From assembly GCF_900141815.1 (NCBI RefSeq), contig NZ_FQYR01000002.1, positions 845,091-909,090 of the forward strand: 64,000 bases of DNA. The letters run 5' to 3'. Source of the stretch: Rubritalea squalenifaciens DSM 18772 (GTDB lineage Bacteria; Verrucomicrobiota; Verrucomicrobiia; Verrucomicrobiales; Akkermansiaceae). Below are positions 2,634 to 64,000 of this stretch, in pieces. The position numbers and the translations under genes were made by a program. The stretch's first letter is position 1, and the number at the start of each line of letters is the position of its first letter. Under the pieces are notes generated by a model. The model was not told where the DNA came from, ran no database searches, and saw nothing but the letters and a program-made list of their open reading frames with translations.

Positions 2634-2637
2634 GGCT

Positions 2638-3120: not shown

Positions 3121-3129
3121 GACAGGGTT

Positions 3130-3786
3130 CTAGATGACGACCCCGTCTTTGACGATGAGAGTTCGGTCGCCATACTTGGTGAGTGACTGGTCGTGAGTGA
3201 CCACGACGAGGGTGGAACCGTCCTCGGATGCGAGGTCGAGCAACATCTTCATGACCTGCTCGCCATTCTTGGAGTCCAGGTTACCGGTGGGCTCGTCCGC
3301 GAAGATGATCTCAGGCTTGTTCACTAGGGCACGGGCGATGGCCACGCGTTGTTGCTCCCCTCCGGAAAGCTCGGCAGGGAGGTGGTCCTGGCGATGACCG
3401 AGGCCTACGCGTTCGAGTGCGGCTTCGGCTGCGCCCATATTGCTTCTGCCTCCGATGAGGGCAGGGATGCTGACGTTCTCCAAAGCCGTGAGCTCTGGCA
3501 GGAGATAGTAGTTCTGGAAAATGTAGGCCATGCGTGAGTTACGCAGATTCGCCTGCCTGCGTTTGGACAGGCTGTAGAGGTCGACATCTCCGATGAGGAC
3601 GGTACCAGCCTCAGGCTTTTCGAGGCCAGCGAGGGTATACATCAGGGTTGTTTTGCCTGCTCCCGATGGGCCGCAGAGAAAGACTTTTTCCCCTTTGTTG
3701 ATAGTGAGATCGACACCGTGCAGCACTTCGACACGTTTTTTACCGACGGTGTATCCTCTGTGAAGATTGGTAGCTTTGATGAGCAT
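3130..3786 (-). CDS. LolD/MacB-type ABC transporter ATP-binding protein
   Basis: A 218-residue ABC ATPase with Walker A GPSGAGKT (39-46), Q-loop (Q91), signature LSGGEQ (140-145), Walker [13 protein letters not shown] (from 160) and an H-loop in VVVTHDQ. The ADEPTGNLD motif and the length are typical of the LolD/FtsE/MacB branch, which powers lipoprotein release or mechanotransmission. No LolC/E-like permease is adjacent, so the partner must be encoded elsewhere. The gene follows the methyltransferase gene by 30 bases and precedes the broken macro gene. Confidence 0.85.
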
Positions 3787-3816
3787 TGCGCTTTAGTGAT
3801 AGTGGCTATTGCTAGA

Positions 3817-4779
3817 TCAGGGAAGGGTAATCCAGAGTGACTTGAGATATTGTTCACCCGGGTATTCCTCTGGCATGTGGAGCGGGGTGATCTGGGCATT
3901 TTTCGGTAGCCTTCGGCTGGCTTCCTGGATGAATTCCTGCAGGGTCATCTTGCGGATGTTTGTGGAGGCGAGGATCCAGCCTCCGGGCTCCAGGCAGGAG
4001 GCTGCGAGCTCGGTCAGGCGGTGATAGTCCCTTTCCACTCGGAAGACCTTGCCTTTGTCGTCACGGGAGAAAGTAGGCGGATCCAGGATGATGCCGTGGA
4101 AGGTACGTCCTTGTCTGGCAAAGCGTTTGAGCCAGTGGAAGGTATCCCCTTTACAGAAATAGTGCTCGCTCGGATCTATGCCGTTGGCGCTGAGGTTGTC
4201 CTTGGCCCAGTCGAGATAGGGCTGGGAGAGATCGAGCGTGGTGGTGGTGGCTCCCGCAGCTGCGGCTGCCACGGAGAAGGCGCCGGTGTAGGCAAAGGTA
4301 TTGAGGATACGCTGACCGGGCTGAGAAAATTCCCGGACTCTTTTCCTATTTTCCCGTTGGTCCAGGAAGATGCCCTGCGAGTAGCCAGACTGGAATGAGA
4401 TGTGGTAGTTCAAGCCGGATTCGCGGGCGAGAAAGGTCTCGTTTTGCTCTGGGCCGCAAAGGTGTTTCGGGTCTTCCTTTTGGTGGTCGTCGAGGCGCTT
4501 CCAGTAGACAGTCTTGCCGGACTCTTCGAGGAAGTCTTTGACGTCTCGTGACATACGGCTATCGCGGGTGGCGATGAGCCAGCGTCCTGCGAAGGTCTCC
4601 AGGAAGACGTCTGGCATGCCGTCACCGATGCCGTCGAAGAGTCTCAGGGCGTTGGTGTCCTCATCGAGGAGGTGTTGTCGTTTATCAATGGCTGTAGTGA
4701 AGAGCTTGTGCACGGTGGTGGCTGGTTCGCTTTTTCGTGGAGATGTTGTAACTTTATGGCGTGCTTGAAGGGTTGCCAT
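3817..4779 (-). CDS. class I SAM-dependent methyltransferase, RlmI/RlmK-like
   Basis: A 320-residue protein with the layout of the RlmI/RlmK rRNA methyltransferase C-terminal domains. It has GIFLDQRENR (136-145), the SAM-binding LNTFAYTGAFSVAAA (159-173), an acidic TLDLS after the second strand, and the DPPTF catalytic motif (233-237). The family methylates cytosine C5 or guanine N2 in 23S rRNA. The N-terminal PUA domain seems reduced or absent compared with RlmI. The start is divergent from the phosphohexomutase gene across only 30 bases. The substrate is inferred from the family. Confidence 0.85.
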   Translation of the reverse strand: MATLQARHKVTTSPRKSEPATTVHKLFTTAIDKRQHLLDEDTNALRLFDGIGDGMPDVFLETFAGRWLIATRDSRMSRDVKDFLEESGKTVYWKRLDDHQKEDPKHLCGPEQNETFLARESGLNYHISFQSGYSQGIFLDQRENRKRVREFSQPGQRILNTFAYTGAFSVAAAAAGATTTTLDLSQPYLDWAKDNLSANGIDPSEHYFCKGDTFHWLKRFARQGRTFHGIILDPPTFSRDDKGKVFRVERDYHRLTELAASCLEPGGWILASTNIRKMTLQEFIQEASRRLPKNAQITPLHMPEEYPGEQYLKSLWITLP

Positions 4780-4809
4780 CTCATTTTTGGTATTTATTAT
4801 CCGGAGCCA

Positions 4810-6747
4810 ATGAGTGATCTGAAATCCCTTCTAGATAAGGCCGTGGAGAACGGCGATTTGTTGGAATCCTCCCGTACTAACATCCAGGCGCTGCTCGCAG
4901 GTACGATCAGCCCGGTAGCTGAAAAGGCCGTGACTGAACTGGCTGAGAAGGGTGAGTGGGCTGAACTCAATGACCGTTTTTACAAGACGCTGGCATTTGG
5001 TACCGGTGGTCTGCGTGGGCGTACCGTCGGCCGCGTAGTGACTGGAGCTGAGCAAGGTGAAGGTGGCCCACTGGGCGCTCCTGAGTATCCATGCGTGGGG
5101 ACCGCGACCATGAATTTCTACAACGTGGGCAGAGCGATTCGCGGCATGGTGGCTTATGTGAAGAAGCACCTCGCCAATGAAGGGCTGGACCGTAAACCAA
5201 GTTTTGCCTTTGCTCATGATACCCGCCACTTCTCCCGCTCCTTTGCTGAGTTTTGCGCGAAGATTTGTACGGACTTGGGCTGTGACGTTTATCTATTCGA
5301 GGCTGCACGAGCGACGCCTCAGCTGAGTTTCCTGATCCGTGAAATGCGTGTGGATTCCGGTGTGGTACTCACTGCCTCTCACAACCCAGCCCATGACAAT
5401 GGTTTCAAAGCCTACTTTAACCAAGGTGCCCAGTTGGTAGAGCCGCATGCCACAGGTGTGATCGAAGAAGTAGACGCGATTACGAGTGAGGCCTACGAGG
5501 CGCTTCCAGAGAGTGAGCAAGGTGAGCTCAAGATTCTCGGTGAAGAGGCTGACCGCCGCTACATGGATAAGCTGCGTACACTGCTTCTCCGCCCGGATCT
5601 GCTGGAGAATGGCGGTGCCAAGGTGGTCTTTACTAATCTGCACGGTACTGGTGGTCACATTTCCGTGCCGATGCTCCGCGAGCTCGGCTTCGAGGTTCTC
5701 ACCGTGGCAGAGCAAGATGGTGCAGACGGTCGTTTCCCGACGGTGGCTTCCCCGAACCCAGAGAATGCTCCTGCGCTCAAGATGGCAATCGAGCTGGCTG
5801 AGAAGGAAAATGCAGAAATCGTGATCGGCACTGACCCTGACTGTGACCGTATGGGCGTGGCTGTACGCAATGACGCCGGAGAAATGCAGCTGCTCACTGG
5901 TAACCAGATTGGCAGCTTGATGGCTTGGTACCGTACCAAGACCATGTTTGATATGGGAATTCTGAATGATTCCAACCGTGGCCATGCGGTGCTGATCAAG
6001 ACTTTCGTGACCACTGAGCTTCAGACCGCGATTGCCGAGAAGTACGGCATCAATATGGTGAACACTCTCACTGGCTTTAAGTTTATCTCTGACAAGCTGC
6101 AGAAGTATGAGGACGGTATCCCAGCTGATAAGAAGGGTGACTACCGTGACCTCAGAGAAGAGGAGAGCCGCAAGCTCCGCCTGGAGTACTCACGCTTCTT
6201 TGTCTTCGGTGGTGAGGAAAGTTACGGTTACCTCGGTGCTGACTTCGTGCGCGATAAGGATGGTAACATGGCGGCTGTCATGTTTGCTGAGGTTGCAGCT
6301 TATGCCAAGAGTGTTGGTAAGACGATTGCTGGTCTGCTAGATGATATCTACAGCGAGTTCGGTTATTACCTAGAGGATGGCAAGTCCATGGTGATGGAAG
6401 GTGCTGAAGGTGCGGCGCAGATCAAGGCGCTTGCAGATTCCTACTCAGACAATCCTCCAAGTGAGGTCGATGGTGTGGCAGTCAGCCGCGTGCTCGACTT
6501 CTCCCGTGAGTCCTTTGAGGACAGCGAAGGTGATGCGATTCCTAAAGCTGGCATGATCATCGTGGAGCTTGAGGATGGTCGCCGATTTGCAGTGCGCCCA
6601 TCAGGTACAGAGCCGAAGATCAAGTTCTACCTCTTCGGCATGGAAGAACCATCCGATGATCTTTGCGCCAGCAAGCAGCGTGTGCAAAAGTCCCTCGAGA
6701 CGATGTGGTCTGCTCTGGAAGCTGACGCGCAGAAGCGTATGGCGTAA
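4810..6747 (+). CDS. alpha-D-phosphohexomutase (phosphoglucomutase/phosphomannomutase)
   Basis: A 645-residue enzyme interconverting hexose-1- and hexose-6-phosphates. The four-domain signature is complete: active-site serine in TASHNP (S190), metal loop DPDCDR (342-347), sugar-binding GGEESYGYL, and phosphate-binding RPSGTEPKIKFYLF near the C-terminus. The start at ATG 4810 is preceded by GGAG (4803-4806). An upstream in-frame extension has no family similarity. The length suits the long PgcA-like branch. The relation to glycogen, EPS or LPS precursor supply cannot be decided from context. It ends in a strong terminator. Confidence 0.93.
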   Translation: MSDLKSLLDKAVENGDLLESSRTNIQALLAGTISPVAEKAVTELAEKGEWAELNDRFYKTLAFGTGGLRGRTVGRVVTGAEQGEGGPLGAPEYPCVGTATMNFYNVGRAIRGMVAYVKKHLANEGLDRKPSFAFAHDTRHFSRSFAEFCAKICTDLGCDVYLFEAARATPQLSFLIREMRVDSGVVLTASHNPAHDNGFKAYFNQGAQLVEPHATGVIEEVDAITSEAYEALPESEQGELKILGEEADRRYMDKLRTLLLRPDLLENGGAKVVFTNLHGTGGHISVPMLRELGFEVLTVAEQDGADGRFPTVASPNPENAPALKMAIELAEKENAEIVIGTDPDCDRMGVAVRNDAGEMQLLTGNQIGSLMAWYRTKTMFDMGILNDSNRGHAVLIKTFVTTELQTAIAEKYGINMVNTLTGFKFISDKLQKYEDGIPADKKGDYRDLREEESRKLRLEYSRFFVFGGEESYGYLGADFVRDKDGNMAAVMFAEVAAYAKSVGKTIAGLLDDIYSEFGYYLEDGKSMVMEGAEGAAQIKALADSYSDNPPSEVDGVAVSRVLDFSRESFEDSEGDAIPKAGMIIVELEDGRRFAVRPSGTEPKIKFYLFGMEEPSDDLCASKQRVQKSLETMWSALEADAQKRMA

Positions 6748-6763
6748 TTTATTTTCTAGATCA

Positions 6764-6794
6764 GGCGGAGTCTTGTTAGGGCTCCGCCTTTTTT
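6764..6794 (+). terminator. intrinsic terminator after phosphohexomutase
   Basis: GGCGGAG/CTCCGCC stem (6764-6770 and 6782-6788) followed by six Ts (6789-6794), 16 bases past the stop codon. Confidence 0.92.
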
Positions 6795-6824
6795 ACTTAC
6801 CACCCGAAGAAACAGAATCAAGAG

Positions 6825-8705
6825 ATGAAGATCATCAAGAAACTATGGCCACTTGTGATGGCTATGCTGAGTGGAACCATGTTGGCGGCTTGTTTTCCGG
6901 GCTTCATCTCAGAGTCTTGGTTGGTGTGGTTGTGGATCCTGCCCCTGATGCTGGCCCTCTGGCTGGGTGGTGGTGAGAAGAAGCGTAAACGCTATGGCTT
7001 TGGAGTGGGCTTTGTGGCGGGTCTAACTTTCTGGCTGATCAATCTGAAGTGGTTGATTGCCATGGGCGAGCTGGATACCGTGCCTCTTGGTGGGGCGATG
7101 TTTGGCTGGGCGTGCTTGAGTCTCTACCTTTCCCTCTACTTTGGATTTTGGGGTATGTTTGCGGCTTCACTCGGTAACCCGTGGAGAGGCAAGCGTGTTT
7201 CTGAAGGTGAGAAGATCTCTTCTAACATTGAAAAGAAACTGTCAGCCAAGGCTGAGAAGAAAGAGGCGAGCGGTTTTACGCTCTCGCTGCGTGTGCTGCA
7301 GTTCTCTTTCATGAATGCCAGCTTTTGGGTGGTGCTTGAGTGGCTGCGTGGCTGGCTGATGACTGGCTTCGGCTGGAATGGGCTGGGAGTGGCTTTCTAT
7401 GATGTGCTGGTAATGGCACAAGCTGCGGACCTGATAGGCGTCACGGGCTTGTCTTTCTTCCCGGTCATGATCGGAGCCTCAGTGCTTCAGACCGGCAAAA
7501 GGATGGCGGAGGAACTCAAGGTGGGGCGTTTCAAGCCACACTGGGAGATCGGGGTGAGTATGGGGATCATCGCGGTGACCTTTGCCTATGGGGTGAACCG
7601 CATGTCTCATTTCAGTAATGTTCCCACCAAGGATGTGAGTGTCTTGCTAGTGCAGGAGAACATCAAGCAGCAGATGAAGTGGGACGAAATGGAGCGGCCC
7701 AAGCACTATGACGGCTATGAGAAATCTACCGTGCAGGCGCTGGAAAAGCTGGAGCAGGAAAATACGGAGGCTATTAGAAAGCAGATTGAGAGTGGGGATG
7801 AAGGCGAGCTAGTTCTCAAACAGCCCGATCTGATCATCTATCCTGAAAGTTCTCTGACTCAAGAGCTGCTCTTCCTGAAAGATGAAGAGGGGGTTTATCT
7901 GCTGCCGGAGAACGACCGCTTGTTGACTAGTGATTTCATGAAGCAGGGGAACCATCATTTGGTCTTTGGTTCAAACCTAGTGCGGGGCAAGGAGTACCCG
8001 AATGGGGGGATCGGTTATGATCCGGAAGCCAACGAGATCTACAATGCCCTTGCCATCGCTACGCCCGATTTGAAGAAGGAGACGGTTCAGCCTGCCAAAA
8101 GTATCAAGACTTACGGCAAGAACCACTTGGTGATTTTCGGGGAATACATCCCGAAGCTTCCTTTGCTCAACACGATCATGGAGATGAGCTCTGGCGCTTC
8201 ATTCGGTAGTAACTTCAGTAAAGGTGGGGTGACTGATCCTATTGATATTAAGGTGAGGGGAGATGATCTGCAGATCATTCCATCGGTCTGCTTCGAGGAT
8301 ACGGTCGGCCGCTTGGAGCGAAAATTTGTGCGTACGGATGCCCCGCAGTTGATGGTGAATATCACCAATGATGGCTGGTTTGGCACGAGTGAGGCGGCGA
8401 TGCAGCAAATGGCGAATGCCAAGTTCCGTACCGTTGAGTTACGCCGGCCGATGGCTCGATCCGCCAATACAGGAGTGAGCTGCGTGATCGATATGGTAGG
8501 AAGCCTGATGAACCATGAGACCGGGAAGCGTAACATGGTGGAAGATGAGACCGGCAACCATTTCATCAAGGGCACTCTCTTTGCCCAAGCCAAGGTGCCT
8601 GTGAACCCTGAGTGGACGGTCTATGCGATCGCGGGCGATTGGTTTGTGATCGCGTGTACGCTTCTCTTCTTGGCCTTAGCCTTTGTGACTTTGAAAAAAG
8701 CCTAG
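6825..8705 (+). CDS. lnt: apolipoprotein N-acyltransferase
   Basis: A 626-residue inner-membrane enzyme adding the third acyl chain to lipoproteins. The N-terminal half carries several transmembrane helices with a hydrophilic insert (about 120-150). The C-terminal nitrilase-like domain holds the apparent catalytic triad: E341 in IIYPESS, K432 in TYGKNHLVIFGE and C489 in IPSVCFED. The conserved NITNDGWFG and the RSANTG loop follow. It is longer than the E. coli enzyme (512 residues), mainly through the insert and a charged region at 290-330. Its TAG overlaps the bioF stop by four bases (CTAG). Several lipoproteins predicted in this window would be substrates. Confidence 0.94.
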   Translation: MKIIKKLWPLVMAMLSGTMLAACFPGFISESWLVWLWILPLMLALWLGGGEKKRKRYGFGVGFVAGLTFWLINLKWLIAMGELDTVPLGGAMFGWACLSLYLSLYFGFWGMFAASLGNPWRGKRVSEGEKISSNIEKKLSAKAEKKEASGFTLSLRVLQFSFMNASFWVVLEWLRGWLMTGFGWNGLGVAFYDVLVMAQAADLIGVTGLSFFPVMIGASVLQTGKRMAEELKVGRFKPHWEIGVSMGIIAVTFAYGVNRMSHFSNVPTKDVSVLLVQENIKQQMKWDEMERPKHYDGYEKSTVQALEKLEQENTEAIRKQIESGDEGELVLKQPDLIIYPESSLTQELLFLKDEEGVYLLPENDRLLTSDFMKQGNHHLVFGSNLVRGKEYPNGGIGYDPEANEIYNALAIATPDLKKETVQPAKSIKTYGKNHLVIFGEYIPKLPLLNTIMEMSSGASFGSNFSKGGVTDPIDIKVRGDDLQIIPSVCFEDTVGRLERKFVRTDAPQLMVNITNDGWFGTSEAAMQQMANAKFRTVELRRPMARSANTGVSCVIDMVGSLMNHETGKRNMVEDETGNHFIKGTLFAQAKVPVNPEWTVYAIAGDWFVIACTLLFLALAFVTLKKA

Positions 8706-9856
8706 GCCAGTGAGTTTAGTATCTCACAGAGTTGTGTGATGTTCTTCTCACTATGCGCCGCTGTAATAGTGATGCGTAGTCTTGCGGTGTTACGTGGTAC
8801 GGTGGGGTAACGCACAGCGGGAGCAAGGATGGAATGCTGGTCAAACAATTGGTTAGACAAGTCGAGAGCCTTCTGAGAATCACCGACCATCCATGGGATG
8901 ATCGCGCTCTCTGGAAGAGGAGAGTCTGTGAGTTCTGAGAATAGCCTCAAGTTGCTCCAGAGTTTTTCTCTTAACGCTGCACCCTCGCCGGATTGGATGA
9001 GTTTCAGTGCGGCGAGAGAGGCTGCTGCCTGGGCTGGAGGGGCGGCGGTGGAGTAGATGAAGGAGCGGGCTTTGTTGACGATCAGATCGATGAAAGCTTT
9101 TGAGCCAGCGATGTAACCACCTGCGGAGCCTGCGGACTTCCCAAGGGTGCCCATGTGAAAATCGATACCAGACGAACATCCGAGTTGCTCAGCGAGTCCC
9201 ATGCCGTGTGATCCATAAATGCCTAGGGCATGGGCTTCATCTACCAGCAGGAGAGCATGGTACTTCTCTTTGAGGGCGACGATTTCGCGCAAGGGGGCCA
9301 GATCTCCATCCATGCTGAATACGGACTCGGTGACGATGAGTATCCTTCTGTTAGGTTCTGCTGATTGGCTTGTGCTTTGAAGAAGTCTCTCCAGTTTATC
9401 CAAGTTGTTGTGAGGAAACACCCGGACGGTCGCGCCTGATAGACGGGCCCCGTCAACCAGTGAGGCATGGGAAAGTTTGTCCAGAATGACGGTGTCTCCC
9501 TTTTCTAACAGGGCGGAGAGTGTGCCGACGGAGGTGGTGTAGCCGTTAGCAAAGGTGATCGCAGACTCTGTTTTCTTAGCCTTGGCGATGAACTCCTCCA
9601 GTTGGCGGTGAGGGCTGAGCGAGCCGGTGATGAGGCGGGATGCACCAGAGCCTGTGCCCCACGTTTCTATAGCCTCAGTCGCCGCCTGCCTGAGTGCAGG
9701 GTGCGTGGCGAGTCCCAGATAGTCATTCGAGGCAAAGCTTGTGACCTCTTTCTGGTAAATAATGCTTTCAGGTTGCTGTGGTGAATCCACTGGCCTGAGT
9801 GTGCGGCGAAGCGAAGCTGCGTCGAGTTCAGCGAGTTCGTCCTCGGGTGAGCGCAT
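8702..9856 (-). CDS. bioF: 8-amino-7-oxononanoate synthase (biotin synthesis)
   Basis: A 384-residue alpha-oxoamine synthase. It has the substrate/PLP-contact SNDYLGLATHP, GSGASRLITG, LDKLSHASLVDGARLSGA, the DEAHALG motif (D206-H209) and the PLP lysine in GTLGKSAGS (K240). BioF condenses pimeloyl-thioester with alanine. KBL-type paralogues share the fold, but the LGKSAGSAGGYI context favours BioF. No other bio gene is adjacent. It follows the carboxypeptidase gene by 26 bases on the same strand and shares a CTAG stop overlap with lnt. Confidence 0.85.
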   Translation of the reverse strand: MRSPEDELAELDAASLRRTLRPVDSPQQPESIIYQKEVTSFASNDYLGLATHPALRQAATEAIETWGTGSGASRLITGSLSPHRQLEEFIAKAKKTESAITFANGYTTSVGTLSALLEKGDTVILDKLSHASLVDGARLSGATVRVFPHNNLDKLERLLQSTSQSAEPNRRILIVTESVFSMDGDLAPLREIVALKEKYHALLLVDEAHALGIYGSHGMGLAEQLGCSSGIDFHMGTLGKSAGSAGGYIAGSKAFIDLIVNKARSFIYSTAAPPAQAAASLAALKLIQSGEGAALREKLWSNLRLFSELTDSPLPESAIIPWMVGDSQKALDLSNQLFDQHSILAPAVRYPTVPRNTARLRITITAAHSEKNITQLCEILNSLA

Positions 9857-9882
9857 GACGTCCGGAAGCTGGTGGTGTAGGC

Positions 9883-10764
9883 TTACTGGGCAGCAGGGCG
9901 CTCAAGTGCCCAACGGAGGAGCTTCTCGGAATCGCTCCAGACATTGGCGCTGTTAGAGCCAAGTACGACCACGATGGCAGTGCGACCATTGTAGGTGCCT
10001 GAGGAAACCAGGCAACGGCCGGAGGCTTTGGTGGTGCCTGTTTTCATGCCATTGCAGTAAGGCACGCGCTTGAGAACCTTGTTGGTGTTATCGAGCCATT
10101 TCCTTTTTCCGTCCGGGTGGAAGAAGTAGTATCCCTTGATGTGGGTGAAGCTGCGGATCGTTGGATTGGAAAAGGCGGCACGAGAGAGAATGGCCAGATC
10201 GTAGGCGGTAGAGTACTGGCCGTTTTCGGTTAGGCCGTGTGGGTTCACGAAATGAGAGTTGCGCATGCCGAGGCTACGAGCTTTGCGGTTCATGACATTC
10301 GCAAAGCTTTGCTGGCTGCCGGCGACATCGCGAGCCAGTGCGCGGGCGACATCGTTGCCGGACTTTACGGTAAGGGCTTTGAGAAGGTCATAGCGAGTGT
10401 AGGTTTCGCCGGGCTTGATATAAATTTTGGTGGGCTCAACCAGAGTGTCGGTCTTTTGAACGGTCACTTTGTTTTGAGTAGAGCCTGCATCAAGCACGCA
10501 GAGGGCTGTCAGCAGCTTCTGAGTGGAGGCAATCGCGCAGCGCTGGTGGGCATTTTTCTCATGAAGAATGCGTCCTGTATCGTAATCAACCACGATGGCA
10601 CGCTTGGCATAGACACTAGGAGCCTGGCTGCGCGGGATGGTGGCAATGCGAACTGGTTCTTGTGCGGCAGTCTGGTCCACCCCTTGCTGTGCGATCGTCT
10701 GGGTGGAGCTGCAGGAGATGGTAAAAATGCTCAAAAAGCTGAGCATGAGAAAGCGTGAGATCAT
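9883..10764 (-). CDS. D-alanyl-D-alanine carboxypeptidase (peptidase S11) lipoprotein
   Basis: A 293-residue low-molecular-mass penicillin-binding protein. It has the three active-site motifs SxxK (STQK, S80-K83), SxN (SGN, 135-137) and KTG (241-243). The N-terminus has a hydrophobic segment ending in TISCSS, a plausible lipobox with C18, so the enzyme is probably lipid-anchored in the periplasm and trims pentapeptide side chains. It lacks the C-terminal beta domain and amphipathic helix of PBP5/6. It is downstream of cdd and upstream of bioF. Confidence 0.9.
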   Translation of the reverse strand: MISRFLMLSFLSIFTISCSSTQTIAQQGVDQTAAQEPVRIATIPRSQAPSVYAKRAIVVDYDTGRILHEKNAHQRCAIASTQKLLTALCVLDAGSTQNKVTVQKTDTLVEPTKIYIKPGETYTRYDLLKALTVKSGNDVARALARDVAGSQQSFANVMNRKARSLGMRNSHFVNPHGLTENGQYSTAYDLAILSRAAFSNPTIRSFTHIKGYYFFHPDGKRKWLDNTNKVLKRVPYCNGMKTGTTKASGRCLVSSGTYNGRTAIVVVLGSNSANVWSDSEKLLRWALERPAAQ

Positions 10765-10857
10765 GGGCGTATTGTGGAGCAGAAATGCCGACTTTCAACC
10801 CATAATCCTGATTAATCTGGGAAGCTGGATAATTTGTTCCCCCTTTATAATCAGTGC

Positions 10858-11244
10858 TTAGGGTTCCAGGGAGTCAGGGCTGAAGGCGCTGGGGTAAAGT
10901 GCTGAGAGGGTAGTTTCTGCAGAGATCTTGCCGTGTGTATCCGCAATGATGATGAGCAGATCGGGGGTGAACTCGTTCAAGAACTGGCGGCAAGCGCCAC
11001 AGGGGTAAGATCCATTGACGCTGACCACGGCTAAAGCTTCAAAGTTCTGGTGACCATCTGCTATGGCTGAGGCTGTGGCCACTCTCTCTGCGCAGCAGGT
11101 CAGGCTGTAGGAGGAATTCTCAATATTGCAACCCGCGTAGATTTTTCCAGAGCTGGTGAGAAGCGCAGCTCCCACGAGGAAGTCCGAGTAGGGAGCGTAA
11201 GCTCTCAGTCGTGCTTCTGTGGCTGCGGCGATGAGTTCTCTCAT
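10858..11244 (-). CDS. cdd: cytidine deaminase
   Basis: A 128-residue short tetrameric-type cytidine deaminase converting (deoxy)cytidine to (deoxy)uridine. Zinc and catalytic residues are in CAE (C51, E53) and PCGAC (C82, C85), and the substrate motif GCNIENSSYS lies at 38-47. It is the third gene of the deoA-deoD-cdd operon, 12 bases after deoD, so deaminated deoxyuridine can feed the phosphorylases encoded upstream. Confidence 0.95.
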   Translation of the reverse strand: MRELIAAATEARLRAYAPYSDFLVGAALLTSSGKIYAGCNIENSSYSLTCCAERVATASAIADGHQNFEALAVVSVNGSYPCGACRQFLNEFTPDLLIIIADTHGKISAETTLSALYPSAFSPDSLEP

Positions 11245-11256
11245 GAGGGTGGCGGG

Positions 11257-11964
11257 TCAGATGGTGAGGCTGGCTCTGAGGGCGATCTGGATCATCTCTG
11301 AGAAGCTGCTCTGCCTCTCTGCGGGCGAGAGTTGTTCCTGGCGGCGGATGTGATCGGAGACGGTGCAGATGGCTAGAGCTTTGGCTCCATATTCCGCCGC
11401 TACTCCGTAGAGTCCTGCGGCTTCCATTTCCACGGCGAGGATGTTCATTTTCTCCATGGTATCGAAAAGCGTATGATCCGGGTGGTAGAAGAGGTCGGCA
11501 GAGAAGAGATTACCCACCTGTACTGGGATATCCAGCTCACCGGCAGCTTTGGTGGTGGCTGAGAGCATGGTGTAGTCTGCTGTGGCGGCATAATCTAAGC
11601 CAGCAAAGCGAGCCCGGTTGACTCCGGAATCGGTAGAAGCTCCGATGCCGATGATGATGTCTCTGAGCTGAATGTCTGGGGCAATGGCACCGCAGGATCC
11701 GACACGGATGAGGTTCTTGACTCCGTAGTGATTGATGAGTTCGGTGGCGTAGATGGAAATGGAGGGGATTCCCATGCCGGAACCCATTACGGAAATACGT
11801 TTACCCTCAAATTCACCGGTGAAACCCAGCATGTTGCGGATTCCTGTGACTTGCTTGGAATTGCTGAGAAATGATTCGGCGATGAATTGGGCGCGGAGCG
11901 GGTCTCCGGGCAGCAGGACGGTCTCAGCAAAATCTCCGAGCCGGGCTTCGAGGTGAGGTGTCAT
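11257..11964 (-). CDS. deoD: purine nucleoside phosphorylase, DeoD type
   Basis: A 235-residue hexameric-type PNP. Family motifs are [35 protein letters not shown] and the MEAAGLY nucleoside-binding segment; the conserved late SDH motif is present in CTVSDH. It splits purine nucleosides to base and (deoxy)ribose-1-phosphate. It lies between deoA (45-base gap) and cdd (12-base gap), forming a nucleoside salvage operon. Confidence 0.95.
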
Positions 11965-12009
11965 GGATGAAGCAGTTTTTTCAGTGATTCGGCTCTATCC
12001 ATGTCAGCC

Positions 12010-13344
12010 CTATCGATGTGAGGTTGGATGGATGACCTCCAGGACGGCATCGTTCGGGTTGATGCTGGAGGAGGAGATGCTGTAGGCCTGCTCTGCTCTC
12101 CAGGCTGCACTTTGCCAGTCTTTGTCAGAATCAGCATGAATCATCAAGAGAGGCTCATCCTTCTCAACACGATCAGCAATATGGGTGATTTCTGTGAAGC
12201 CGACGGAATGGTCGATCTCCTGGTCCACTCTGGTGCGGCCTCCACCGATGCGGTTGACCGCCTCTCCGAGCAGTTTAGTATTGATCGAGTGCACATAGCC
12301 GGACTGTGTGGCCAGCAAAGGCTTGATAACTTTGGCTTTGGGAAGGTGCTTGTCCGGATTTTCCAGCAAGTCGCTTGGTCCACCGAGGGTCGAAACCATC
12401 TTGGAGAAGTACTCGGCAGCCTTGCCGGACTCGAGTGACTGTCGGATCTTCATCTTGGCGTCCGTGTCATCTCTTACCAAGTCACTATTCAGCAGAGACT
12501 CTTCTGCGAGACCAGCAATCACAGCACGGAGTCGTTCATTCTGGCTGTCACCAGTGAGGAAATTGATGGCCTCGCGGACTTCCAGAGCATTGCCCGCGCT
12601 GTCTGCGAGGGGTTGGCTCATGTCTGTCACGAGAGAGGATACTTTCATGCCGCACGCGCGTCCCAGGTCAGCCAGTTTGACAGCGAGGCGACGGGCGTCG
12701 CTGAACTTGGTCATGAAGGCGCCGTTGCCTGCCTTGACGTCCAGTACCAGGCAGTTGATGCCCGCGGCAAGTTTCTTGGAGATGATGGAGGAAGAGATCA
12801 GGGAGCCTGACTCAATCGTGGCAGTCACATCACGAACGGCATACATTTTACCGTCTGCTGGGGCGAGTTCGCCAGTTTGGCCAATGATGGCGCAACCGAC
12901 TTCCGAGACAATCTTGCGGAAAAGCTCGTTGTCCGGAGTGGTATTGTAACCGGGAATGGATTCGAGTTTGTCCAAGGTGCCGCCAGTATGACCTAGGCCT
13001 CTGCCTGCGATCATTGGGACGTAGCCTCCGCAGGAAGCGAGTAAGGGGGCGAGTACCAGGGATACCAGATCGCCCACTCCTCCTGTAGAGTGTTTATCAA
13101 GAATGGGACCAGGCAAGTCCCAGGAAAGCTTTTTTCCGCTATCACGCATGGCTTTAGTGAGCGTGATGAGTTCACCGCCATTCATGCCGCGCTGGAAGAC
13201 AGCCATGGCAAAGGCGGCGATCTGACCCTCGGTGACTGTGCCGTCTACGATCCCGTTGACAAACCACACGAGTTCTTCGTCAGGCAGCGGCTCTCCGTCT
13301 CGCTGCTTACGGATAAATTCCTGGGGTGTGTAACCGAGTGACAT
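12010..13344 (-). CDS. deoA: thymidine phosphorylase
   Basis: A 444-residue member of the thymidine/pyrimidine phosphorylase family. The N-terminal helical domain contains FVNGIVDGTVTEGQIAAFAMA. The phosphate- and nucleoside-binding motif DKHSTGGVGD follows, then GRGLGHTGGTLDKLESIPG. It converts thymidine to thymine and deoxyribose-1-phosphate and is the first gene of the operon with deoD and cdd. Pyrimidine-nucleoside phosphorylase (pdp) is a close alternative. No DeoR/CytR-like regulator is adjacent. Confidence 0.92.
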   Translation of the reverse strand: MSLGYTPQEFIRKQRDGEPLPDEELVWFVNGIVDGTVTEGQIAAFAMAVFQRGMNGGELITLTKAMRDSGKKLSWDLPGPILDKHSTGGVGDLVSLVLAPLLASCGGYVPMIAGRGLGHTGGTLDKLESIPGYNTTPDNELFRKIVSEVGCAIIGQTGELAPADGKMYAVRDVTATIESGSLISSSIISKKLAAGINCLVLDVKAGNGAFMTKFSDARRLAVKLADLGRACGMKVSSLVTDMSQPLADSAGNALEVREAINFLTGDSQNERLRAVIAGLAEESLLNSDLVRDDTDAKMKIRQSLESGKAAEYFSKMVSTLGGPSDLLENPDKHLPKAKVIKPLLATQSGYVHSINTKLLGEAVNRIGGGRTRVDQEIDHSVGFTEITHIADRVEKDEPLLMIHADSDKDWQSAAWRAEQAYSISSSSINPNDAVLEVIHPTSHR

Positions 13345-54213: not shown

Positions 54214-54585
54214 ATGTCTTCAAAAACGATCAACGACTTGGAAATCTACCGCGAAGCGATGAGCCTCGCTGAGGAGATCTGGGCTTTGGTCGTATCCTGG
54301 GATGGCTTTGCTAAAAGCTCACTTGGGCTGCAGTTAGTACGCAGTACGGATTCGATAGCTGCGAATCTCACTGAAGGCTACGGGCGCTTCCATTATAAGG
54401 AGAATCAGAAGTTCTGCTTCTATGCTCGAGGTAGTCTGCAAGAAACCCAGACTTGGGTGGAAAAAGCTGCAAGAAGGGGGGTGATTCCAGACGAAATGGC
54501 ACGACAGCTCTATGCGAAGTTGGAAACGCTGAAGAAGCGGCTTAACGCTTACATTTCCTCCATCGGGCAAGCGGCATCTACCTAA
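54214..54585 (+). CDS. four-helix-bundle protein (S23 / intervening-sequence family)
   Basis: A 123-residue protein matching the S23 four-helix-bundle family. It has INDLEIYREAMSLAEEIW, SLGLQLVRSTDSIAANLTEGYGR (the IAANLTEGYGR signature), NQKFCFYARGSLQE and the closing helix LYAKLETLKKRLNAYIS. Members were first found in intervening sequences of 23S rRNA and also occur as free genes. The function is uncertain. Its weaker codon bias contrasts with dnaK and groEL on either side. Confidence 0.9.
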   Translation: MSSKTINDLEIYREAMSLAEEIWALVVSWDGFAKSSLGLQLVRSTDSIAANLTEGYGRFHYKENQKFCFYARGSLQETQTWVEKAARRGVIPDEMARQLYAKLETLKKRLNAYISSIGQAAST

Positions 54586-56742: not shown

Positions 56743-57471
56743 TTATTTCTGTTTCTCGGTGATCACCGGAGCGGTCTGTTCAGCTGTTGCGGTGCCGCCG
56801 GGGAGTTCCATGATCTTGATATTGCGGAAGTGGATCTCAGCACCTTCGGATTCCAGACAGATGTATCCCTTTCGCATGGAGGACTGGCTCATGCCGTTAA
56901 CGAATTTACCATTCACGGAAAGTTTGATGACGCCGTCCACGCAGACGACATCGTAGGTGTTCCATTCACCGCGCGGCTTGCAGCGATTCTCGACCGATTT
57001 GCTACGCTGGCCTCTTGGGTTGTCTGGTACGGCGGTCAAACCATTGGCTCCGAAGAGTTCGCCATGAACGTAGGCGATGGGGCGGGGATTACCGTTTTTG
57101 TCTGGGTAGAGCTTGGGCCAGTCCAGTTCTAACATCTGAACTTCCATGCCGAGTGGCAGGCGGTTGGGTGCTGGTGTGGCATTGCTCCAGACGAAGACGC
57201 CTGAGTTGCCGCCAGCTTCCATGTGCTTCCACTCGATATGCAGGACGAAGTTCTCGTATTGCTTCTCGGTCCTCATTACGCCGATGGGCTTGCCGGTGCA
57301 GATGAGGATGCCGTCTTTGACCTTCCAAGTTTCAGGAGAGGTGTTCACGTCCACCCAGCCAGTGAGGTCCTTGCCATTGAAGAGTGAGGTCCACTTGGGG
57401 ACTTTTTCTTCGGCGAATACTGAGCTGATGCTGGATACGGCGAGTGCGGAAATAAGAAGTAGAGATTTCAT
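56743..57471 (-). CDS. exported DUF1080 (3-keto-disaccharide hydrolase fold) protein
   Basis: A 242-residue protein with a signal peptide ([19 protein letters not shown]). A DUF1080/concanavalin-like jelly roll follows: [76 protein letters not shown] and [19 protein letters not shown]. Some relatives hydrolyse 3-keto-disaccharides made by Gfo/Idh-type oxidoreductases, so a link to the two oxidoreductase genes at 47.7-50.2 kb is possible but not shown. The ATG at 57471 fits the signal peptide. Confidence 0.85.
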
Positions 57472-57544
57472 GATAGTCTGGTGAGTGAATAGCAAGAAAC
57501 ATACTAGCACATCACCAGACATCTTTCAGTAGCAAGGGGCGGTC

Positions 57545-60500
57545 TTATTTTCTGAGTAGAAGAATGGCCCAGATAGCAGCACCCAGCAGGATGATCAGAT
57601 AGAGCGGCATCCACCAGCTGGATCCGTGCTCAGGGGCTACGCTGAGTTCCAGAGTCATCGGGCTGTCCGCATTGAGCTGTACCCCGCGGTGGAAGTGGAG
57701 CAGTTGTCCACTCTCCGGCATGGTGATTTCGATCGCCTGCGGAGCTGGCTGGGCGGCGAGTTGCTGGCTGACCATGCGGTTGGCAATGCTGAGCATGGCC
57801 TGACGTTCTTCCTGCGTGTTTCCGCTGAGGAGCTTGTCGATGTCGGATGGGTTGTAGTTGGTGTCGCCATTGAAAACCGGGTTGATCTTGGCGGCCTCTT
57901 CCAGCGCGGCATTCATGTTGGCCGTATTACCTACAGCGGCATTATCGAGGTAGATCTTCTGGCGTCTGGTGTTCAGGCCCATGAGGGCTTGCTCGTTACG
58001 CAGCTTGCGGAGTTGGACTCGGGCATCTTCGTTAGAGGCTGCATCCACGGCTCTGTTGCTGGAGACTTGGTTGAGGACTTGCTCGGCTTTCTTGTACTCG
58101 CCTTTACTGATCCAGTCATTGGCCTGCACCATCTGATCCTGTGCTTTTTCTACCACAGCCTGACGCTTCGACTGCATGGTCTCCTGGTACTGGCTTTCGC
58201 TGTAGCTGCTCTCTACACCATGGGCATCGATGAGGTCGAATGACTGGTCGCGGCTGGCGAGTTGGTAGCCCTTCGGTAATCTAACAAACCAATCAATCTT
58301 CTCGATGGGGGCATTGAATCGAGGGCCATCCAGCGCGATATTCTTTTGAGTATCGGCTTCGCCAAGGTCACGGTAGACGATGCGGACGTCCGCGTGGCGG
58401 TCATCCTCGGCTCCCGGAGTCACGTAGAAGAGATGCTCGTCACCCTGACGCACCACATCCACGCTCTCGCCATTGACGATTACGCTGAAGAGCTCTGCTT
58501 TTTCAGGGAGCATGGCGCGCATGGTGTGCTTTTCCACCACGCGGACTTTCAACTCCACCATGGTTAGGGCAGCGCCGTGGTCGCTGAAGACTGAAGTGAG
58601 TGTGCCATTGACGATGCGTAGCTTCAGAGTGTCTGCGATGTCGTGGCGCTTGACCGCAATCTTCATGGCCATGTCAGGGACAGTTACCTGATAGCAAAGG
58701 CCTGGGACGTTGCCCTCAGCTGGGTTGCGGAGTTGGGCTGGGATGTTCGCCCAGTCGAGCGTGCGCCATCCAGCAGTCTCAGACGGTGTCATATCGAGCC
58801 GTCCGCTGGCACGCACGGTGACGAACTGGGTGACCTGGCGGGCATCAACGAGTTTGATGGGCGTGATGCTTTCTGCTGAGCCGCGTTGTTCGACTGCGCG
58901 CTGGAATTCAATTTCCACAGGCACATTGCCGATGATTCCACGGCGGAGCCTAATTTCCCAGATATCTCCATCTAACTTTACGATCTCTTTCACGGAGGCG
59001 CCACTGCCACGCACGGTGCGGGCTTCTTCCTCGCTAAGGCCGGGGAGTTGGACGCGCAGGGTTTTGACTGCAGCGTTTTCGATGGTGTAGTTCAGGCTGA
59101 GGCGCGTTCTGGTCTGGCCCTCACGCAGGGTGACTTCCTGCAGTGCGGTCGCTTTGACCCAGGGATCCAGCTTCTCGATTCCGATGCTGAGCTTCCAGTC
59201 TGATTGCAGGAGCTTGAATGCCAGGTCTCCTTTGCGGTTGCTACCGGCAGTGCGTGCATCGAGCTGGGAAATGTGCTGCCTGTTGATGGTGCGGATACGA
59301 ATGCCAGGGTTCGGAGAGATACGCAGGTCACCTGTCTGTCTCACGGTATTGAGGATGCTGAAGTGCGGGACTTGCCATTCAGCAGCGCTACCATTGGCCG
59401 CAGGGGAGCGTCCGGCCATGGTGATCGAGAATTGCTGGGCACCGATGGTTCTGCCATTGAGCTGGAGCACGGCGATGCGTTGCTTGTTACGTTCGATCTC
59501 GGTCCAGTCGCGCAGGGCAGGGCTGCTGATAGATTCTATCTCCAGATCCTGTGGAATAGGGAACTGCAGTTCGAAAATACCTGCTCTGAGGATATTCACA
59601 TTCGCAGTGATCGAGAAGACTATACGCTCTTCACCCAGCGAGAGTACCTGATTTGTAGTGACCCTGAGTTCGGCCTCCACGGGTTCGATCTTGAGGGAGA
59701 GCTGTGCGTTTTCCTTATTGTAGCGGTAGACCTTGTGGAGAGTGAAGCCGCTGTGGACTGCTTGGGCTTGCTGCAGGAGGCTGGCTTTAAAATCACCGAT
59801 GTTAGCGGTAGCCAGACCTTCAGTCTGGATGTTGTCCGGCTGGGCGTCATCGGAGAATGCCAGGCCTAAGATGCCTACCACGGTGTCTGCCTCGCGAACG
59901 CTCAGGGGAGCCAAGGATAAATCCTGTGGGAGCTCGGCCAGTCCGCGCTGGCTGGTGACAGTGAGTTGAAATTCACGTGATGCCGGTTTTGCTAGATCGA
60001 TGCTGAGAGTTTTATTGTCCGGGTTGAAGCGCCAGCTTTCCACATTGTGGCCCATCACATCACCGATCATGATGTCAGCCGGGGTGTCGATGGTGAGAGA
60101 AGAAATTTGGCCGCTGACTGGACGTATGGAGAGTTCATGGTAACCATCGACAACGCCGGGAGACGGTAGATAGATGTCTGCAGATTCTACAAAGAAACGT
60201 GTGGGTTCCTTTTCAGGATCTCTGCTGGCAGGGCGTAGGCTGAGCGCAGCTGCCGTGACTGGAGTAAGAACCATGTCGGCACCGCTGAGCCCTGCAGCCA
60301 GTGTCGTTTTCTGCTCCTGGCTGATGGCATTGGCTGAGCTGACTTCCCAGTTGGGTTGATCCACAGTGACCGAGAGTCGATGAGCGGCGCTTGGGCCAGT
60401 GGGTACGGTCCAAAGATGGTCCGTGAGGTTCTGCATCGGCATCTCATAGCTCACCGAAGCGGTGATCAGTCCATCACGCTGCGCGATCAGGTACCAGGTA

Positions 60501-63500
60501 AGCTGGCCATTGTTGTTGCCTTTGCTGACTTGGGCGCCTTCCGCTTGGATGTTTTTCAAGACGGCAGGATTGGACAGGAGCACAATGCTTTCGCCAGCCT
60601 TGGCCGTCCACTTGACTTCCATGCTGGCCTCCAGGCGTTCCGCTTTGATGCTCCAGTTCTGGGAAATGGAATCGGCAATCTCGCTGGCTGAGGAGACATC
60701 GCCGGAGCCAAACCAGAGAGACATGGCGAGCACGGCGGTGGCGGCCGTGGTCACTGCTTTCTTTGCGCGGCGCATCATGGAGCCCTGTAGCCACTGCTGG
60801 ATAAGCAGGATGAAGAGCAGGCAGCAGATGGCAGCCAGAATGCCGTAGAAGGCAATCGCTCCCCCATGCTGGCCAAGGATGCCAAGAAGAATCAGTGCCG
60901 CAGCTCCTGACTGGACGAGTGGATTGCGTAATTCCCGGCGGGCGACTCCTCCGATCAATGCGATGGCACCGAGAGCTCCAACCGCAATCCATCCTTTCGA
61001 GATCATGGCTTCGTTGACTGTTTTGTTAGACATGGTGATGACTAGTGGTTGCTCAGGTGAGACAACTGGGGTGACGACTTCAAAACTCTGTTTGTTCACT
61101 CTGCGCTCGCTCGAAGCTTTGGTGGCCAAGTTGACCGAAAAGACAAAAGCGAGAATGATCCAGAGCACTCCCAGGGCTGGTATCCAGCCGCCGCTCTTGG
61201 CTCTGCGAAGCGTCCATACGGAAGCGATGATCAAGAGCAAGATGCCTAGGATCTGGAACGGGTACTTCATTTGCCATTCAAATCCTGTCTCCGTGAGGTT
61301 GGGTTCGCTGGGCTTGGCGTTGCCGTCTATCACTTCGAGCAGATGATCACTGTCGCTGGTGATTTTCCATTCGCTGATGGTAATGGGAGCGGCGAGTGAT
61401 GGAGTTCCCGCAGTAGGGCGTGAGGCATTTTCCGAGGTGCTGCCATAGCGAAGCGTGACTTTGACTGGAGCATTCGGGTCGTTCTTCGGCGGCAGCGGCA
61501 CAAGGATGTGGCTGCCGTCTTTGCGGGCATTGAGGCTTTCGCCATCTGCACGAACTTCCCAGAGTGTGGAGTTCTCAGGAAGGGTCAGCTCAAGGGCTTT
61601 GCGTCCTCGGGTCTTGATAAAGAAGCTGGCTTCGGTGACTACCTGTCCGTCTCGGGAGACGACAGTATCCAAGGTGGCAAAGTCGACGACTTGGCCGAGG
61701 GTGGAACTTGGCTGATACCACTCGACGTTCATGCTGAGCTCGAAGTCACGGGAGGCATATTGCCAGGCTGCTAGAGAGGGAGCACTGCTCATCAGGCGAT
61801 ACTCCGCGGGGAGCTCGGATGCGCCAAGCTTGAGCAAGCCATTGGAAACGAGAATGGAGGGTTTGACCTGAGTGGGGCTGACTACCTGGATAAATCCACC
61901 TTCATTGAGGGCGTCCATCGGTCTTACTTTACCCAGTTCCAGCGTGCCACCCTTGGCGTCCATCGGCTGTTCAAAGGAAACTAACAGAGTGGATCCGCCG
62001 AGTGTCGGCTGATTGAGCGTGACGATGAGTTGATCGCCATCTTGTCTCCAGCTGCGGACATTCTGACCTTCCACAATCACATTACCCAGACCGTTTTTCT
62101 CACTCAGTCCGGGTACGAGTATTTTCCATTCATTCATCGGTGAACCCACCACGAAGTAGTTGATCAGCACACTTCCGTAGACCATGGACTCGCGCAGGGA
62201 GTAGAGGTGGAAGACGTCTGCCTGGATGCTCTGTGGGAGAGACTCCACAGTCATGGTGGCTTCCCAGTCGGCATCGCGCAGACGGAATGCCTGCTGCAGA
62301 GCTGCGGAACGTTTAGGGAAAAAGGCGAGTGGGGTTTCTACGAGTTTCTTGATGTCCTTCGGGACGAGTCTCCAGCCGAGCGCGGCTTCGACTCCCAGAT
62401 TGCCTCGTACGGATTTGGCCTGAGGGTAGTTGATCTTTACGAGTTTCCAGTCGCCGGCCTTGGTCGATTTGTTGAGGGAGAGATGAACGTGGATCAGCTG
62501 ACGGCCGATGACTTCCTTGGAGAAATTAATTTTTAGGCTGCGCTCTCCGTTGGTCACGGTGCTGCCCACGATCATCTGGGCGACCTCGGCACCGGTGACG
62601 CTGGCTACGGCGTAGTCGGCAGGGATACGCATTTCCCACTCACGGAGTGGTGCCTCGCGGATATCGAGCTCGATGTTAGCCAAGACCTCGCGATCGGCCT
62701 CGGACAGCTTGTAGACGAGGACCTGGTTGACTCCCACCTCTGGCAGGATCTGGTCGGCCACGACTTCCCAGTCGCGCTGGGCAGAGGGAAAGCGGTAGAC
62801 GAAGACCTGGCGCGGCTTGCTGGGGAGATTGGCTCCAGGGAATTGCTCTGGGGCCAGTTGCATCATGCCTTGCTGATTGGAGACACCTAGCCTAACAGCG
62901 CCGTGGTTGCTGAGTCTGACGTGACCTGAATGACGCAGGGCATTTTCCGGGGTGATGCGGAGTGGTTTGACCTTGGCTGGGAACTGACCCAGAGGGTACT
63001 GGGTCTGGATGGTGATAGGGTTGATCACGTTACGTTCACCTGTGAAAGTGATTTCCAGCTGACGCTGGTCGCCTTCTCCAGAGACCTTCCAGTTGCCTAC
63101 CTGGTCACCGTGTACTGCAAGGATATCTCCGGGGCCGTCCAAGGTGAGGCGCATGGTACGCATTTTCCCCTGCATGATTTTCGTCTCGATGCGAGTGAGC
63201 TCTTTCAGCATGCCTGCACCGACCTGCACATCCACCAGTGCTTTGGTGGTAAAGAAGAGTTCTCCCTGGGCGTCGGCTTTCTGGTCTTTCCAGTAGACTT
63301 GGCAAATCCCCGTGGCTGGGAGGAAGCCAGTCCAGTTTCCGCTGGTGTCTTGTTGGGGGACGACGAGCGCATCCTGTTTGAAGCTATAGCCGGCAGGAAT
63401 ACCGGAGAGGGTGAGGGGGACGATGGCGCTGTGAGGGATGGAGAAGGTCAGGCCCTGCCAGCCCTGAGGTTCGTAGAGTGAGGCGGCGAAGACCATGTTG

Positions 63501-64000
63501 ATGGGGTATTCGCCAGCTTCGCTAAACTTGAGCGTGTAGCTGCTATTGAGTCCTTTGCCTCTGAGAATATCCAGTGAGTAGCCAGCGCCGTGAGGAAATT
63601 CTTTCAGGGCGAGCGGGCCGGTTAGGAGGGTGATTTCCCCGCCTTCAGAGGATCTCACAGAGGCGGTGCCACTCAGAGTGATAGTGGCGCTTTCCTTGTT
63701 CTCACTGAGAGTGGCATTCAGTTTGAGTTGCTGGAGATTGATCTTGCCGATAGTCGCACCGCTGGCACTGGTTCCGAGCACGATGGAGTTGTTTGCCGTC
63801 GAGAGTAGGGAAAGTTCGTAGGGATTGGAGGTGTTGACCTTGAGCGGCTGGCAGCCATTGGCCTGCTGGAGATTCACTTGAAGACCCGGCGACCAGCTGA
63901 TCTTGGTCTCCTGGCGGAATCCTGTCGCTTGTCCGGGGCTGAGGGTGGTGACTTGGAGTTCCTTATCCAGCTCGGTGGCATTTCTCAGGATCTTGGCGCT
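57545..64000 (-). CDS. giant membrane protein with two homologous beta-rich halves (N-terminus beyond window)
   Basis: At least 2151 residues; the frame is open to the right edge. The N-terminal half is beta-rich and extracytoplasmic in character. A membrane block of several helices follows (coded at about 61120-61265 and 60700-61010), then a second beta-rich half homologous to the first. Next come a helical, TPR-like region (about 57750-58200) and a last transmembrane helix (about 57545-57610). Matches between the halves include LPGLSEKNGLG/LPGLSEEEART (near 62110 and 59040) and LPENSTLWEVRADGESL/LPEKAELFSVIVNGESV (near 61560 and 58490), with equal spacing. No family was recognised. Confidence 0.8.
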   Translation of the reverse strand, partial: SAKILRNATELDKELQVTTLSPGQATGFRQETKISWSPGLQVNLQQANGCQPLKVNTSNPYELSLLSTANNSIVLGTSASGATIGKINLQQLKLNATLSENKESATITLSGTASVRSSEGGEITLLTGPLALKEFPHGAGYSLDILRGKGLNSSYTLKFSEAGEYPINMVFAASLYEPQGWQGLTFSIPHSAIVPLTLSGIPAGYSFKQDALVVPQQDTSGNWTGFLPATGICQVYWKDQKADAQGELFFTTKALVDVQVGAGMLKELTRIETKIMQGKMRTMRLTLDGPGDILAVHGDQVGNWKVSGEGDQRQLEITFTGERNVINPITIQTQYPLGQFPAKVKPLRITPENALRHSGHVRLSNHGAVRLGVSNQQGMMQLAPEQFPGANLPSKPRQVFVYRFPSAQRDWEVVADQILPEVGVNQVLVYKLSEADREVLANIELDIREAPLREWEMRIPADYAVASVTGAEVAQMIVGSTVTNGERSLKINFSKEVIGRQLIHVHLSLNKSTKAGDWKLVKINYPQAKSVRGNLGVEAALGWRLVPKDIKKLVETPLAFFPKRSAALQQAFRLRDADWEATMTVESLPQSIQADVFHLYSLRESMVYGSVLINYFVVGSPMNEWKILVPGLSEKNGLGNVIVEGQNVRSWRQDGDQLIVTLNQPTLGGSTLLVSFEQPMDAKGGTLELGKVRPMDALNEGGFIQVVSPTQVKPSILVSNGLLKLGASELPAEYRLMSSAPSLAAWQYASRDFELSMNVEWYQPSSTLGQVVDFATLDTVVSRDGQVVTEASFFIKTRGRKALELTLPENSTLWEVRADGESLNARKDGSHILVPLPPKNDPNAPVKVTLRYGSTSENASRPTAGTPSLAAPITISEWKITSDSDHLLEVIDGNAKPSEPNLTETGFEWQMKYPFQILGILLLIIASVWTLRRAKSGGWIPALGVLWIILAFVFSVNLATKASSERRVNKQSFEVVTPVVSPEQPLVITMSNKTVNEAMISKGWIAVGALGAIALIGGVARRELRNPLVQSGAAALILLGILGQHGGAIAFYGILAAICCLLFILLIQQWLQGSMMRRAKKAVTTAATAVLAMSLWFGSGDVSSASEIADSISQNWSIKAERLEASMEVKWTAKAGESIVLLSNPAVLKNIQAEGAQVSKGNNNGQLTWYLIAQRDGLITASVSYEMPMQNLTDHLWTVPTGPSAAHRLSVTVDQPNWEVSSANAISQEQKTTLAAGLSGADMVLTPVTAAALSLRPASRDPEKEPTRFFVESADIYLPSPGVVDGYHELSIRPVSGQISSLTIDTPADIMIGDVMGHNVESWRFNPDNKTLSIDLAKPASREFQLTVTSQRGLAELPQDLSLAPLSVREADTVVGILGLAFSDDAQPDNIQTEGLATANIGDFKASLLQQAQAVHSGFTLHKVYRYNKENAQLSLKIEPVEAELRVTTNQVLSLGEERIVFSITANVNILRAGIFELQFPIPQDLEIESISSPALRDWTEIERNKQRIAVLQLNGRTIGAQQFSITMAGRSPAANGSAAEWQVPHFSILNTVRQTGDLRISPNPGIRIRTINRQHISQLDARTAGSNRKGDLAFKLLQSDWKLSIGIEKLDPWVKATALQEVTLREGQTRTRLSLNYTIENAAVKTLRVQLPGLSEEEARTVRGSGASVKEIVKLDGDIWEIRLRRGIIGNVPVEIEFQRAVEQRGSAESITPIKLVDARQVTQFVTVRASGRLDMTPSETAGWRTLDWANIPAQLRNPAEGNVPGLCYQVTVPDMAMKIAVKRHDIADTLKLRIVNGTLTSVFSDHGAALTMVELKVRVVEKHTMRAMLPEKAELFSVIVNGESVDVVRQGDEHLFYVTPGAEDDRHADVRIVYRDLGEADTQKNIALDGPRFNAPIEKIDWFVRLPKGYQLASRDQSFDLIDAHGVESSYSESQYQETMQSKRQAVVEKAQDQMVQANDWISKGEYKKAEQVLNQVSSNRAVDAASNEDARVQLRKLRNEQALMGLNTRRQKIYLDNAAVGNTANMNAALEEAAKINPVFNGDTNYNPSDIDKLLSGNTQEERQAMLSIANRMVSQQLAAQPAPQAIEITMPESGQLLHFHRGVQLNADSPMTLELSVAPEHGSSWWMPLYLIILLGAAIWAILLLRK

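Follow-up and report, generated by a model that had tools for sequence, protein, structure and literature searches.

A giant Rubritalea membrane protein with two paralogous halves, encoded in a conserved operon with an ECF sigma factor and a VWA-domain protein

The window analysed here is a stretch of 64,000 nucleotides from Rubritalea squalenifaciens DSM 18772. One end of it is occupied by a minus-strand gene for a giant membrane protein (57545-64000) that is open at the window edge. A sequence-only reading of this DNA had described a giant protein built from a duplicated half. The duplication stands, with the refinement that the halves are themselves built of modules of ~175 amino acids (aa). 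The open reading frame (ORF) is not complete in the window: its start codon lies outside, at window-equivalent 64426, and the full protein has 2,293 residues and begins with a signal peptide. The gene is present as a single copy in its own genome. Its parts within the window are as follows.

57545-64000, minus strand: giant ORF inside the window, residues 143-2293 of 2,293
61277-64000, minus strand: half A ectodomain, residues 143-1050 in the window; modules A1-A6, with A1 mostly outside
62753-63262, minus strand: module A3, ~residues 389-558; modelled fold resembles the M1-aminopeptidase N-domain (model 356-525)
62240-62746, minus strand: module A4, ~residues 561-729; modelled fold resembles the M1-aminopeptidase N-domain (model 528-696)
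60800-61270, minus strand: membrane block behind half A, residues ~1053-1209; about five transmembrane (TM) segments
60686-60781, minus strand: internal signal-peptide-like stretch, residues 1216-1247, MMRRAKKAVTTAATAVLAMSLWFGSGDVSSA-SE
57617-60685, minus strand: half B ectodomain, residues 1248-2270; five beta modules, B1-B5
60224-60691, minus strand: module B1, ~residues 1246-1401; modelled fold resembles the M1-aminopeptidase N-domain (model 11-166)
57632-58633, minus strand: module B5, ~residues 1932-2265; helical insertion inside (model 697-1030)
57758-58198, minus strand: helical insertion in B5, ~residues 2077-2223; no counterpart in half A
57554-57610, minus strand: C-terminal TM anchor, residues 2273-2291

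We infer the fifth TM segment and the topology of the membrane block from the charge pattern. Just 3' of the giant gene, on the same strand, lies a gene for a 3-keto-disaccharide hydrolase (DUF1080 type, PF06439; window 56743-57522), a neighbourhood that is not kept in relatives. Elsewhere in the window, between dnaK and the groEL region, positions 54214-54585 hold an ORF for a 23S rRNA-intervening-sequence protein (PF05635, 1.1e-26), with no rRNA gene in view nearby.

In its own genome, the giant gene is the last of a three-gene sigma-factor operon, which the earlier reading had not noticed. The gene order is ECF sigma factor (L002:12801-13373), VWA protein (9587-12760), and giant (2636-9517), separated by 40 and 69 bp. 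The first gene encodes a 190-aa protein with Sigma70 regions 2 and 4 (PF04542, PF08281). The second protein contains vWF_A, VWA, and YfbK_C domains (PF12450, PF00092, PF12034) together with TPR domains, and begins with a conserved N-terminus of ~95 residues (DPELEARIVAWVLGEAS.FEAAELERL...), with a TM segment near residue 116 in 58 of 59 VWA proteins; this N-terminus is the proposed anti-sigma domain, for which Pfam gave no anti-sigma match. The MIDAS of the VWA domain looks intact, with GT in 53/59 proteins and hhTDG in 49/59; the DxSxS motif served to select the 59 proteins. The TPR region is similar to the N-terminal portion of Amuc_1098, a pilus secretin (5e-75 to NF042912, but at 253 bits against a 750-bit cut-off). 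In Akkermansia, Amuc_1098 is the outer-membrane PilQ (PMC4960237).

We surveyed the operon at the 80 best GTDB loci, counting a VWA gene as upstream if it was on the same strand and within 1.5 kb. The VWA gene is directly upstream of the giant at 72 of these loci, i.e., at all 72 that are assessable; at the other eight, the giant starts ≤1.2 kb from a contig end. An ECF sigma gene lies ahead of the VWA gene at 45 of the 80 loci, and in 20 of those 45 the sigma and VWA genes share a 4-bp stop/start overlap, an arrangement that suggests translational coupling. No further conserved neighbour of the operon was found. The layout resembles that of ECF sigma factors with transmembrane anti-sigma factors: behind the sigma gene, in many cases overlapping it by 4 bp, comes a gene for a single-TM protein whose N-terminus is conserved and putatively cytoplasmic. 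It differs in that the periplasmic part consists of TPR and YfbK-type VWA domains, and in having the giant as its third gene.

The two beta-rich halves of the giant, A (residues 33-1050) and B (residues 1236-2270), align collinearly, and a membrane block separates them (residues ~1053-1209, window 61270-60800), as had been proposed from the sequence alone. The motif pairs reported in that proposal are all found at their places in the ORF: VPGLSE (62116-62099) and LPGLSE (59047-59030) are offset by 1023 aa, or 3,069 bp; LPE..DGES (at 61582) and LPE..NGES (at 58510) by 1024 aa; and DWEATM (at 62269) and DWKLSI (at 59200) by 1023 aa. One detail needed correction, in that the first LPGLSE, placed near 62110, is present at that site but reads VPGLSE. 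The offset of ~3.07 kb had been considered unlikely to arise by chance; indeed, the BLASTP and profile-profile matches between the halves are far beyond chance. This self-comparison, set beforehand as a test that could refute the duplication, returned a significant collinear match. BLASTP aligned half A to half B along one collinear path (99 bits, E=4e-25, 21% identity, 643 columns), and a profile-profile comparison with 16 homologues per profile gave E=1.5e-42 over 767 columns. Moreover, of 773 aligned residues, 84.9% have the same predicted secondary structure in both halves, as compared to 50.6% (sd 2.6, max 57.1%) when the registers are slid by 10-80 residues.

The finer unit of the protein is the beta module of ~175 aa, with six modules in half A and five in half B, and with motifs recurring every 150-180 residues along the giant. 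When the profiles of eleven windows were compared all-against-all, the in-register pairs were A2-B1, A3-B2, A4-B3, A5-B4, and A6-B5 (1e-6 to 1e-14); A1 and A3 are each other's closest module (2e-21), and A4 and A5 cross-match. Together, these matches argue that the module array came first and that a unit of five or six modules was doubled later. Half B alone has a helical region of ~150 residues; in the predicted model, this region is inserted in B5, and the final strands resume after the helices. A very different view would be that the halves resemble one another through convergence or a general beta-repeat bias, with no duplication. Both halves are beta-rich and consist of related modules, and off-register matches therefore also occur. 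However, no other register comes near the in-register match (E 2.8e-37 with larger profiles of 79 and 68 sequences, versus 1.8e-8 for the next best register), and every one of A2-A6 finds a collinear module in half B, even though A1 and A3 are closest to one another. The profile-profile match and the module register rule out convergence, which we regard as exceedingly improbable; judging from these comparisons, the duplication of the halves is real.

AlphaFold models of half A (pLDDT 83, pTM 0.40) and half B (pLDDT 79, pTM 0.38) are confident for the modules singly but not for their overall arrangement. In these models, A3, A4, B1, and B5 match the N-terminal domain of M1 aminopeptidases (Z 11.6-13.1, 3.0-4.1 Å, ~147-162 residues), such that the modules, as predicted, resemble this domain in fold. 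When the eleven modules were compared by hhalign to a shallow, five-protein alignment of M1 N-domains, the profile similarity was no better than for reversed controls; hence, we do not claim the likeness of fold as homology. The giant also differs from M1 aminopeptidases in being a tandem array with no catalytic domain. It lacks the HEXXH zinc motif and GxMEN, and has no Pfam match to the M1 N-terminal domain family (PF17900, Peptidase_M1_N). The best structural match of both halves is ribophorin I/Ost1, with Z scores of 14.8 and 15.2 for predicted module pairs; the rmsd of 12-20 Å over two domains indicates that the domains are alike but differently arranged. Ribophorin I/Ost1, a subunit of oligosaccharyltransferase, likewise has two successive beta domains on a membrane anchor. 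The giant, by contrast, is bacterial, with eleven modules in two arms and a multi-TM block, and has no sequence match to it; no ribophorin family is among the Pfam matches of the whole giant or of either half. Foldseek also ranked integrin alpha, alpha2-macroglobulin-like, and AP-2 mu chains, which we rejected as generic beta-sandwich chains with low TM scores.

The sequence-only reading recognised no known family, and this holds for Pfam and NCBIfam, where the giant has sub-threshold matches only (TgpA_N 0.75, DUF3364 0.2). A PDB sequence search returned nothing (best E 0.2), and we found no report on the family in open-access papers. The giant and its relatives thus form a large and unnamed family of ~2,300-residue proteins that has no Pfam or NCBIfam entry. 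Scanning genome contigs with a single sequence found no relatives; an alignment-based scan did. The family is present in 60 of 289 sampled genomes of Verrucomicrobiota, as well as in Planctomycetota. All sampled genomes of one genus (g3) of the window's own family are without the giant. With fused genes in many verrucomicrobial families and in Planctomycetota, the fused state is, by its distribution, old.

Unfused single-half homologues, for which the earlier reading had suggested a search, exist in other families of the same order. They are encoded by adjacent genes of ~1,120-1,310 residues, with modules 2/3-4-5-6 in the same order and a TM pair or triplet at the C-terminus, and the genes that come after them (~1,170-2,800 residues) show additional module matches. 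At the loci examined, neither a sigma nor a VWA gene was recognised next to them. Loci L033-L040 represent a divergent cousin system in which two or three module-and-anchor genes follow one another, with no sigma or VWA gene recognised; one third gene there has Amuc_1098-like TPRs. The idea that two ectodomain-plus-anchor genes fused draws support from these anchored relatives and from the start of half B, which opens with a signal-peptide-like hydrophobic stretch in 64/64 fused homologues examined. This evidence supports a fusion that is ancient and maintained. The giant could also have originated by internal duplication, with the internal signal sequence gained later; of the two origins, the signal-peptide-like junction favours fusion.

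In two planctomycete metagenome-assembled genomes (L069 and L082), inserted DNA divides the gene exactly between the membrane block and the internal stretch. Here, the split half B carries a separate start, and its signal peptide is homologous to the stretch that is internal in fused relatives (CLA/ATPDGF when split, CLA/AVPDGF when fused; slashes mark junctions here and below). In L069, the inserted DNA is an interspersed repeat: dozens of matches to it occur across that genome, whereas the relatives of L069 have none. For the L082 insert, the same genome holds three more matching sites, and the L069 genome contains pieces of it. Half B of L082 runs off its contig. In the tree, both L069 and L082 are nested among fused genes, with L082 adjoining the fused L089 with full support. 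The nesting means that these splits are secondary, and apparently independent of each other; the split genes might be decaying. Splits at other loci (L055, L044, and L047/L078) have the appearance of frameshifts or stops and are located within half A, half B, or runs of modules; we excluded them as evidence of natural separation. In Rubritalea profundi (L047/L078), the VWA gene and the giant are each broken once in an otherwise well-assembled genome, by either sequencing error or decay.

The properties of the internal stretch bear on whether the giant is cut in two by signal peptidase I. Its hydropathy (KD19 1.66, KD12 2.35) is close to that of N-terminal signal peptides (1.65, 2.33), whereas TM helices are more hydrophobic (KD19 1.93-2.31, KD12 2.61-2.93). 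An A-x-A is found at the junction in 43/64 fused homologues, against 0.24 in random windows, partly reflecting alanine richness; examples of junction ends are APLARA/E and DFAQA/A. Under a stricter rule for the -3/-1 site, 39/64 qualify versus 26.5 expected; with shuffled tails of 30 non-redundant proteins as the control, the excess is modest (19/30 versus 13.7, only p=0.025). The Rubritalea giant itself has S-S-A/S, an allowed but not ideal site. On these sequence features, we consider cleavage at the internal stretch close to an even question, if anything slightly on the doubtful side. There is a precedent in the FbcH cytochrome b/c1 precursor of Bradyrhizobium, which yields two membrane proteins when signal peptidase cuts at an internal signal peptide. 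FbcH is like the proposed giant precursor in being bacterial and having an internal signal peptide; the proteins are unrelated, the products of the giant would be paralogues, and its cleavage is a prediction. Conversely, the giant may stay one uncut polypeptide, with the internal stretch as its last (sixth) membrane segment and the arms acting in cis. This fits with the stretch being hydrophobic enough to span the membrane in 58% of cases (KD19 above 1.6), with the weak enrichment of cleavage sites, and with the maintenance of the fusion across two phyla, which a purely dispensable linkage would not need. It fits less well with a hydropathy typical of signal peptides rather than TM helices, and with natural insertions at exactly the junction that leave the halves as separate genes. 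We view an uncut giant as a serious contender that nonetheless falls short of an even chance.

We tentatively favour, at slightly less than even confidence, an explanation in which the giant is an exported, inner-membrane-anchored periplasmic protein with two paralogous halves that functions in an ECF-sigma switch. The features on which it builds are demonstrated at the level of sequence: the duplication, the module register, the membrane block, the internal signal-peptide-like stretch, and the conserved operon. Each half would consist of ~175-residue beta modules in a row, with the predicted M1-aminopeptidase N-domain fold, and a membrane anchor at the end. The precursor would export half A and then cross the membrane about five times; the internal signal sequence would export half B, and signal peptidase I may cut at the internal stretch to give two membrane-anchored partners. 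The two arms would then form a periplasmic receptor or scaffold that touches the second protein of the operon at its TPR and VWA domains, and the cytoplasmic N-terminus of this second protein would hold the ECF sigma factor until an envelope signal frees it. The role in an envelope switch is proposed because of the operon, and genes sharing one operon need not interact; that the arms contact the TPR/VWA protein, and that its N-terminus holds the sigma factor until such a signal, strikes us as evenly balanced.

The giant could instead be a structural or assembly scaffold of the envelope (e.g., chaperone-like or cell-wall-binding), and merely a sigma-regulated target outside the sensor. Sigma-factor operons often include their own targets, and both the predicted ribophorin I-like fold and the resemblance of the VWA protein's TPR region to Amuc_1098 would suit such a role. 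However, the presence of the VWA gene at every assessable locus, with nothing else conserved nearby, looks more like a dedicated module, and we consider a scaffold outside the sensor plausible but rather improbable. Returning to the switch, its most specific form, which we hold to be similarly on the improbable side, is a polyprotein conserved in Verrucomicrobiota and Planctomycetota: signal peptidase would cut a precursor of ~2,300 residues into its two paralogous arms, and the ECF-sigma switch would receive equal amounts of both. Through the operon, what was a hypothetical giant becomes one component of an envelope-signalling module that can be tested. Should cleavage occur at the internal signal peptide, the giant would be an example of a natural polyprotein in bacteria, made of paralogous receptor arms; the two genomes with natural insertions already have the halves separate.

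Upstream of the sigma gene in the Rubritalea genome is a sulfatase-modifying-factor-like (FGE) gene (L002:13477-14433), and beyond it lie genes for a PEP-CTERM protein and a sulfatase-like protein. Sulfatase genes near the giant operon recur in eight loci only.
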